From assembly GCF_000470655.1 (NCBI RefSeq), contig NC_021921.1:2046001-2110000 (forward strand): DNA of 64,000 bases, given 5' to 3'. A program made the translations under genes and the position numbers. Below are positions 9,071 to 10,304 of the stretch, in pieces. Origin of the DNA: Halorhabdus tiamatea SARL4B (GTDB lineage Archaea; Halobacteriota; Halobacteria; Halobacteriales; Haloarculaceae). How positions within the stretch are numbered: position 1 is the first letter of the stretch; every line of letters starts with the position of its first letter. The notes under the pieces were generated by a model. It was not told where the DNA came from and ran no database searches. It saw only the letters and a program-made list of their open reading frames with translations.

Positions 9071-9111
9071 CCGTCCCCGGACACTACCGCTAATCGGCCA
9101 ATTGACCTCCT

Positions 9112-9131
9112 CCATGCCCTGAAGGACGTGG
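9112..9131 (-). repeat. Right-end hairpin of IS200/IS605-like element
   Basis: Stem of 9 bp with one mismatch and one G-U, 2-nt loop; flanked by TTGAC at 9102-9106 (GTCAA on the - strand), the presumed cleavage site. The adjacent perfect hairpin at 9132-9148 could be part of a TnpB-type guide RNA scaffold. Confidence 0.5.
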
Positions 9132-9440
9132 AATCCGACCATCGGATTTCCGCCGAGTGTGGCGTTCGAGGTTCCAACCCGCACTCAGAGGGAACCGGCG
9201 GCACACCGGGGGAACTCTCGTTTCCTCCCTCGTATAGGGCTGTGGCCCGGTCAAACAAGCCCCATCGGAATCCGTGTCATCGCCGTGCGAACCACCGCTG
9301 GTTCGCCGCCCCTTGTGGTTCGGGGCCGGCGTCTCACCGATTCCGTAGCAGACCATGGTACGCGGAGCCACACCAAAACGGTTGCGGTCGAAATCCGGCC
9401 CGGCCACCGTCGGCGGCTGTCGTGCCGGGCCTACCGCTTG

Positions 9441-9462
9441 ACCTCCGCCTGAAGTCGGAGGT
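9441..9462. repeat. Second IS200/IS605-like end hairpin
   Basis: Perfect 7-bp stem ACCTCCG (9441-9447) / CGGAGGT (9456-9462) around an 8-nt loop. It lies 9 bp past the stop of the leftward gene 9471-10304, so it may also act as a transcription terminator for that gene. Confidence 0.5.
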
Positions 9463-9470
9463 ATGCGCTA

Positions 9471-10304
9471 TCAGTCTGCATCAACGTCTACCGCCCACTG
9501 ACCCGGTGCAGCAAGCGCGACGCTCGTGACGGCCTCCCGGAGGTCCTCCCTGGAGTGCCACGTTCGGCATCGATTCGCCACCTCGAACTGTCGGAAGAGA
9601 GCGAGATGGACCCAGCTGTAGGACGGTTCGGTTTCGTCTCTGTTTTCGAGCGCGTCATCGAGAAACACCGTGAGTTCGTGTTCGGTGAGCTCGATGCCGT
9701 CATCACGGGCAGTCGCGAGCAGGCCTCGGAGTTCCGCTTTCTTCTGACTCTCGTCCAGATCGTCGGCGAACGCGATGCGTCTGGCCACTGCCAGAACCTC
9801 GTCTTTCCCGCCGAAGTCAGTGTGTCCGATCCCGTAGTAGTCACGTGGAAGAACCACCGTTTGGTCGAAACAGTGATCCCCCCGGAGCAGTCCAAGTTCG
9901 ACGGCCTCGCCGCCGGAGTCCTTTTCGTAGATGGCGACGTTTCGATCGGCGAACTCGGTCAGCAGATGGAACTTGAGTTCGAACTCCAGCGGATCAGTTC
10001 TGTCTCGACCGAGAGTGAGTCCGAGCGGTGGGGTATCGCCGAGGACGACGGCGGTCGCAGTCGTGGGCTTGGCGAGTTCGTACTGTGCGATCCGGAGCGA
10101 GCGGTGGTACTCCCGGCGATAACTCCCGAAGACGACGTAGGTGGTGTAGCCAGCGGCTTGCAACTGTGGTAACTCCTCGTTGACCCATGTCCGGATCGCC
10201 GTGTAATCCTCGCTCGACAGCGTTACCCCTGAAAGTGCTCGCTGTAGCGCCGCGTGTACCCGGCGACGCCGTGCAGCATTCCCATTCCCATTCCCGTTCC
10301 CCAT
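9471..10304 (-). CDS. Unknown Rossmann-like protein, deoxyribosyltransferase/TIR-like N half
   Basis: 277 aa. After a Gly-Asn repeat and a basic helix (residues 1-35), residues about 50-150 show alternating strands and helices: TTYVVFGSYRREYHRS, ATAVVLGDTP, then NVAIYEKDSGGEAVELGLL. The last motif resembles the dSGtxxElGyA signature of nucleoside 2-deoxyribosyltransferase-like and TIR/SLOG-related folds, whose Glu is catalytic. The similarity is a judgement by eye. The C-terminal 110 residues are helical and acidic and unrecognised. It is divergent from a winged-helix gene 122 bp away, which may be its regulator. Function unknown; nucleotide metabolism or signalling is the best guess. Confidence 0.5.
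   Translation of the reverse strand: MGNGNGNGNAARRRRVHAALQRALSGVTLSSEDYTAIRTWVNEELPQLQAAGYTTYVVFGSYRREYHRSLRIAQYELAKPTTATAVVLGDTPPLGLTLGRDRTDPLEFELKFHLLTEFADRNVAIYEKDSGGEAVELGLLRGDHCFDQTVVLPRDYYGIGHTDFGGKDEVLAVARRIAFADDLDESQKKAELRGLLATARDDGIELTEHELTVFLDDALENRDETEPSYSWVHLALFRQFEVANRCRTWHSREDLREAVTSVALAAPGQWAVDVDAD
10278..10301 (-). repeat. Hexanucleotide repeat GGGAAY x4 encoding (Gly-Asn)4
   Basis: Four tandem 6-mers directly after the ATG of the leftward gene encode GNGNGNGN. Changes in copy number would not shift the frame but would lengthen the N terminus and could alter translation initiation. Confidence 0.8.

Follow-up and report, generated by a model that had tools for sequence, protein, structure and literature searches.

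A transposase-less IS200/IS605-type element with a putative omega-RNA-like right end in Halorhabdus tiamatea

Layout and boundaries of the element

The window analyzed here is a stretch of 64,000 nt from the genome of Halorhabdus tiamatea SARL4B (contig NC_021921.1, positions 2,046,001 to 2,110,000), a genome of 3.15 Mb on two contigs. By its sequence, the segment at 9102-9479 on the minus strand is a 378-bp non-autonomous palindrome-associated transposable element (PATE) of the IS200/IS605 superfamily. It sits at the 3' end of a gene on the same strand, and the locus has the following features:

9471-10304, minus strand: host gene (277 aa), whose last codons have been replaced by the element; its stop codon now lies inside the left end
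9480-9483, minus strand: TGAT target and presumed target-adjacent motif, directly 5' of the element
9102-9479, minus strand: whole element, with its left end at 9479 and its right end at 9102; sharp homology borders in copies at unrelated sites
9429-9470, minus strand: conserved left-end block TAGCGCATACCTCCG..., with 88-98% identity in autonomous elements
9441-9462, minus strand: left-end hairpin, a near-perfect DNA hairpin with 10-nt arms that are 90% complementary
9241-9282, minus strand: vestige of a tnpB 3' end, reading ..DGACLTGPQ.. like the TnpB C terminus of relatives
9170-9196, minus strand: helix 1 of the putative right-end RNA, GGTTCC..GGAACC around CTCTGAGTGCGGG; most positions do not vary across the 56 sequences compared, and 99.1% of cells are paired
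9132-9148, minus strand: right-end hairpin 2 (AATCCGATGGTCGGATT), with compensatory changes and 96.4-97.4% paired
9112-9131, minus strand: right-end hairpin 3 (CCACGTCCTTCAGGGCATGG), with five pairs changed on both sides
9102-9111, minus strand: right tip, ..AGGAGGTCAA, where 3' cleavage is presumed to occur and the RNA scaffold to end
9086-9101, minus strand: would-be guide sequence (TTGGCCGATTAGCGGT), placed by analogy with TnpB guide RNAs

The sequence-only reading of this region had started from two end-like modules 336 bp apart, each with TTGACCTCC and CCTGAAG. Both modules are real. TTGACCTCC occurs in the 64-kb window only at 9102-9110 and 9438-9446 on the plus strand (0.54 occurrences expected), and TTGACCTCC followed within 12 nt by CCTGAAG was found twice in the window, compared with no occurrence in any of 100 dinucleotide shuffles. 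No close form of this pair was found elsewhere in the 3.15-Mb genome. The two-hairpin layout that had been described for 9102-9150 on the minus strand is also present, at 9148-9132 and 9131-9112. What changes is the assignment: the modules are the left end (9438-9462) and the right end (9102-9150) of one element, which runs from 9102 to 9479 rather than stopping at 9462. The left-end hairpin at 9441-9462 has a single-strand DNA fold z-score of −2.42. Hairpin 3 of this copy has one C-A mismatch (9128/9115) that is absent in most relatives.

The segment has the properties by which PATEs are recognized. At 378 bp it is too short for a transposase; palindromes lie close to both ends (9441-9462 and 9112-9131); there are no terminal inverted repeats, as the right tip AGGAGGTCAA and the left tip GCAGACTGAT are not inverted copies; there is no target duplication, TGAT being on the left side only; the ends are related to those of IS605-type elements; and the same unit is found at different sites. 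Autonomous IS605/IS1341 elements encode a Y1 TnpA and/or TnpB, and neither is encoded here. Since only the tnpB 3' vestige is present, the element is a derivative rather than an autonomous member of IS200/IS605. The earlier claim of IS200/IS605 ends lacking a transposase is thus supported, and the statement that no tnpA or tnpB is readable holds insofar as there is no intact tnpB, but it overlooks the vestige at 9282-9241. A 4-nt deletion interrupts this tnpB-like stretch in one full-length copy, so that the vestige is not kept as protein. We rejected the idea that the internal frame 9407-9090 is coding, given this deletion and the lack of a Pfam match to the frame.

Target choice was examined over 60 left ends. 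A target motif at a fixed offset of 12-13 nt from the conserved left-end block is present in 58 of them (TGAT in 57, TGAC in one), and the six positions 5' of the motif are without strong base preference. At the present site, the element supplied two codons and a stop codon in place of the last three codons of the host gene: the joined flanks read VDVDLAD*, compared with VDVDAD* at present. The host gene has no Pfam family; its relatives in two other genomes are 80% (G092) and 73% (G109) identical. In G092, the nearest gene relative (locus L104) is closely followed by what appears to be a reverse-oriented end of another IS605-type element; the 3' end of this gene may be a repeated target. An orthologous empty site was not found, and the two closest host-gene relatives differ at their 3' ends, so that the empty site is a reconstruction, in which GTTGAT would be expected to be joined to TTGGCCGATTAG.

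Relation to complete tnpA-tnpB elements

Thirteen loci with a matching right end were fetched from other genomes (L077-L089). The left-end block lies 1.4-2.0 kb away in 10 of them, a full-length TnpB (63-100% identity to the TnpB of L086) is encoded in 12, and a TnpA (76-100% identity to that of L086) in eight; the TnpB match at L089 is partial only, at 37%. The sequence-only reading had expected IS1341-type relatives. The closest complete relatives are instead tnpA-plus-tnpB elements of the IS605 type at eight of the 13 loci, not elements with tnpB alone. Locus L086 (G071), which comes from the window's own genus, encodes tnpA and tnpB, with the Pfam families Y1_Tnp and Cas12f1-like_TNB. It resembles the present element in its left-end block (98% identity over 42 nt), in its homologous right-end hairpins and in its TGAT target. 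Unlike the element, it encodes both genes, and its helix 1 is of another type, GACGC..GCGTC followed by TTGAAACC. As aligned, the left end of the element is common to tnpA-tnpB elements, and its right end is homologous with theirs. The sequence-only reading was to stand or fall on a further copy of the end motif in the genome and on similarity of the ends to haloarchaeal elements. No other copy of the motif is present in this genome, but the ends clearly match haloarchaeal tnpB elements, and the reading is therefore not refuted.

Two loci, L090 and L091, were considered as a source of the element. They have the left end in common with it and about 45 more bases (80% identity), but were rejected, as the score of their right ends is only 26 bits. 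Outside haloarchaea, 35 nt of the right end are 91% identical to a stretch starting 8 bases after tnpB in Morganella phage IME1369_01. This match lies at 2501-2535 of locus L234, which corresponds to KY653118.1 36172-36206, and the phage tnpB is annotated as a "putative virulence protein".

Structure of the right end

Taken alone, the right end of the window folds no better than its shuffles (z −0.86), and the structural case thus rests on covariation. Across 28 right ends (15 of the window type and 13 of the tnpB type), 95.4% of the cells in hairpins 2 and 3 are paired, compared with 31-46% in slid controls, and the covariation score is 0.449, compared with 0.166 in shuffles. Among 56 window-type sequences, all of which except the window itself were gathered by exact match to part of helix 1, the three helices are 96.9% paired, compared with 26-51% in slid controls; helix 1 is nearly invariant, so that it gives little information by itself. 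On these alignments, the right-end helices are conserved by compensatory change. Conservation of the hairpins may reflect their use as DNA by TnpA, their use as RNA by TnpB, or both.

A covariance model was built from the 56 window-type sequences only. It scores the window, itself in the training set, at 114 bits, and it recovered the right end of all 13 loci L077-L089 at 35.8-59.2 bits, while the 3' ends of the resident tnpB genes score at most 34.5 bits. An omega-RNA combines a structured right-end scaffold with flanking DNA as its guide, and the right end resembles one in structure and position only. We interpret it as the DNA of an omega-RNA-like scaffold, of which transcription and TnpB binding are putative. 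The sequence-only reading had likewise described the right end as built like the guide-RNA end of a TnpB element, and this is supported.

Comparison with Rfam gave weak matches at the same place to sot0042, an omega-RNA family, and to HgcC, both below the gathering score. RF02656 scores 16.9 bits at the right end against a gathering cut-off of 88, and RF00062 (HgcC) scores 26.5 bits against a cut-off of 50. Resident tnpB genes likewise show HgcC and sot0042 matches at their 3' ends. Sub-threshold HgcC matches of 26-31 bits lie at 9089-9231 (minus strand) in the window, at 1771-1932 in L034 and at 1846-1944 in L022, the latter two being the 3' ends of two such genes. HgcC is listed as a non-coding RNA gene family and may itself be an IS200/IS605 guide-RNA family. 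Rfam matches to mir-1307 and SpF59 had chance-level E-values and were discarded.

Distribution and mobility of the family

A search with positions 9071-9470 against 146 genomes of the same taxonomic family found matches in 83 genomes, across 20 of the 22 genera. The whole unit, with the same two ends, is contained in one alignment at 83-89% identity in five other genomes (G109, G110, G025, G024 and G114), and the full-length relatives with names are all haloarchaea. The element family was collected by exact match to GAGTGCGGGTTGGAACC, which gave 75 occurrences on 74 GTDB stretches, and the right tip follows in 59 of these. Eleven of the stretches are bacterial by record title, with one occurrence each; none has the tip, which means that the tip is present in 59 of the 64 haloarchaeal occurrences. 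Both ends are found in 33 members and the window, 34 in all, with a median length of 377, under a both-ends pattern that itself required TGAY.

Evidence for movement came from Natrinema hispanicum CDM_6, where five 377-bp copies with 94.4-98.7% identity lie at different sites. These near-identical copies indicate that the family moved recently, and that it did so despite lacking a transposase, as the sequence-only reading had supposed such elements can. One family copy is present in Haloquadratum walsbyi J07HQW2 (L156), and haloarchaeal plasmids also carry the family. The plasmid search returned 68 records with some match, including enterobacterial ones (20 from Escherichia), and six with at least 80% of the query. 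In the phage collection, no DNA match to the element was found in any haloarchaeal virus.

Two scaffold types

Across 142 genomes, the scores of the covariance model form two classes: an upper one of more than 62 bits, with 35 matches distributed over 25 genomes, and a lower one. None of the 25 upper-class loci examined has tnpB directly upstream, within flanks of up to 3.5 kb of which several are much shorter; at one of them, L208, a tnpB of another lineage lies beyond the right end. Five lower-class loci were examined at 58.7-60.4 bits. Four have a cognate tnpB, and the one that does not, L230, is a short derivative beside a complete element. The GGTTCC..GGAACC type of helix 1 is typical of the transposase-less family, and it was unexpected that none of the tnpB-bearing elements examined has a window-type scaffold. 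Given two score classes, the upper of which is without upstream tnpB, the transposase-less family looks like an old lineage that has a scaffold of its own, and not like a fresh deletion of known complete elements, within the genomes searched and flanks of up to 3.5 kb.

Three of the 75 GAGTGCGGGTTGGAACC occurrences (L164, L176 and L177) have a TnpB match upstream at an E-value of 1e-5, in a set of 74 stretches of which many include little upstream sequence. These three were rejected as tnpB elements with a window-type scaffold, since the TnpB match in each belongs to a different insertion sequence beside or inside the PATE. At L177, from Halorubrum aquaticum, the PATE body is interrupted by a stretch that resembles another small IS605-type end with a hairpin. 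Co-occurrence was scored with classes set by hand, a 60% identity threshold, and partial matches and pseudogenes counted as present; on this scoring, L086-type TnpB is not enriched in genomes with a window-type scaffold (7/25 vs 23/117, Fisher p 0.42), and dependence on an L086-type TnpB is therefore not favored.

The copy in H. tiamatea

TnpB domains are encoded at 26 loci of the host genome, alongside four TnpA genes; the best of these reach 47% (TnpB) and 58% (TnpA) identity to the L086 proteins. A matching left end is absent from every resident tnpB and tnpA locus, there is no second copy of the element in the genome, and the presumed guide has no second genome match with fewer than three mismatches. 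A mobilizing element with the same ends was sought in this genome, as the sequence-only reading had proposed for tnpB elements, and none was found. With no cognate TnpA/TnpB pair, second copy or second target match, this copy is probably dormant. The proposal that its guide RNA could be retargeted by a TnpB encoded elsewhere is not supported for this genome: without other copies of the ends, a cognate TnpB or TnpA, or matching resident left ends, retargeting by a resident TnpB would be possible only by cross-recognition. Two identical 1.6-kb copies of a tnpB element, L039 and L040, lie at different sites in the host genome, which indicates that some resident IS200/IS605 elements moved recently.

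Parallels with known elements

Elements of this kind are already known as PATEs, and the present copy is a further example. They are reportedly mentioned in work on TnpB and the spread of transposons (Nature, 2023). In Haloquadratum walsbyi, six published families have been described (Dyall-Smith et al. 2011, PMC3119063). Like the present element, they have palindromes near their termini, lack terminal inverted repeats and a transposase, and end like IS605-type elements; one of them, HqIRS71, contains part of the C-terminal coding region of a transposase (PMC3119063). Unlike the present analysis, the passages describing them do not consider RNA structure (PMC3119063). A PATE-like element of about 271 nt, reported in 2020 from Halanaerobium hydrogeniformans, has the same layout, with a left-end hairpin, 58 nt from the very end of tnpB and a complete right end; it differs in having a bacterial host and a single copy (PMC7290912). 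The PATE of Halorubrum virus HRTV-DL1 is also a transposase-less IS605-type element, described as strongly transcribed at one end, and differs in being 489 bp long (PMC10544981). In an account that equates sotRNAs with omega-RNAs, the families RF02656 and RF02657 are RNAs derived from haloarchaeal tnpB elements, at their 3' end, and unlike the present right end they belong to tnpB genes (PMC12558985). TnpB has also been treated as a gene drive (PMC11870625). Among the papers listed by the literature searches, none concerned a family of PATEs that has a scaffold type of its own.

Proposed explanation and alternatives

We are highly confident that the element is a haloarchaeal PATE in which a short body, retaining a vestige of the tnpB 3' end, lies between a left-end hairpin and an omega-RNA-like right end. 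Its boundaries, its TGAT target, and the spread and recent movement of its family are read directly from sequence comparison. By analogy with the IS200/IS605 family, a Y1 TnpA from another element would recognize both end hairpins as single-stranded DNA, and this trans-acting TnpA would excise the element and join it 3' of TGAT. Because the host gene (10304-9471) shares the strand of the element and reads into it, the simplest origin of a right-end RNA would be as a 3' tail on the mRNA of this gene. Such an RNA, on the minus strand, would end in GGAGGTCAA followed by the flank. A TnpB in trans could then load this RNA, cut the empty site and help to keep the element.

The sharing of TTGACCTCC and CCTGAAG between the two modules, in the same direction, together with the resemblance of the left hairpin to the right-end hairpins, could suggest that two right-end relics, left by different tnpB elements, lie 336 bp apart by chance. 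We regard this as extremely improbable: the block at 9429-9470 is the left end of tnpA-tnpB elements, and the whole 378-bp unit recurs elsewhere, bounded by the same ends and almost unchanged in length, which refutes two independent relics. A far closer call is whether the copy is a dead relic, once mobile and guide-RNA-making and now decaying without any activity. The genome lacks both a cognate TnpA and a cognate TnpB, it holds a single copy, and one pair in the third hairpin of this copy is broken, all of which are consistent with such a fate. On the other hand, the family as a whole still moves, and intact boundaries with 83-89% identity to full-length copies in other genera mean that decay is slight at most; on balance, we put this reading at slightly short of an even chance.

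It is also conceivable, though we think it rather unlikely, that the right end of this family has turned into a non-coding RNA in its own right, or into a guide RNA for the TnpB of other elements, and that selection on the RNA, and not on the ends alone, keeps the family. Helix 1 and GAGTGCGGGTTGGAACC are nearly invariant across haloarchaeal copies, albeit in a search that required GAGTGCGGGTTGGAACC, and since they lie about 70-100 nt inside the tip they are not obviously needed as an end. Consistent with this reading, no tnpB-bearing element with a window-type scaffold was found, and the Halorubrum virus PATE is described as strongly transcribed at one end (PMC10544981). This reading is weakened by the overlap of the ends with the RNA, as a result of which conservation of hairpins 2 and 3 can reflect transposition, and by the likeness that young copies owe to their youth; moreover, expression of the family's right end is putative. 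A broader proposal is that of a haloarchaea-wide transposase-less family with its own selected scaffold whose RNA acts in trans, either as a guide-RNA parasite that borrows TnpB or in a separate role. We consider this improbable and offer it as speculation.

Implications for the family

For the PATE favored here, the individual copy is ordinary, and the family-wide scaffold is the part worth following. The family has its left end and target in common with complete elements, and its scaffold is distinct from theirs and would be easily told apart in RNA-seq or TnpB pull-downs. The family thereby bears on whether gene-less IS200/IS605 derivatives may persist by means of TnpB and guide RNA acting in trans.
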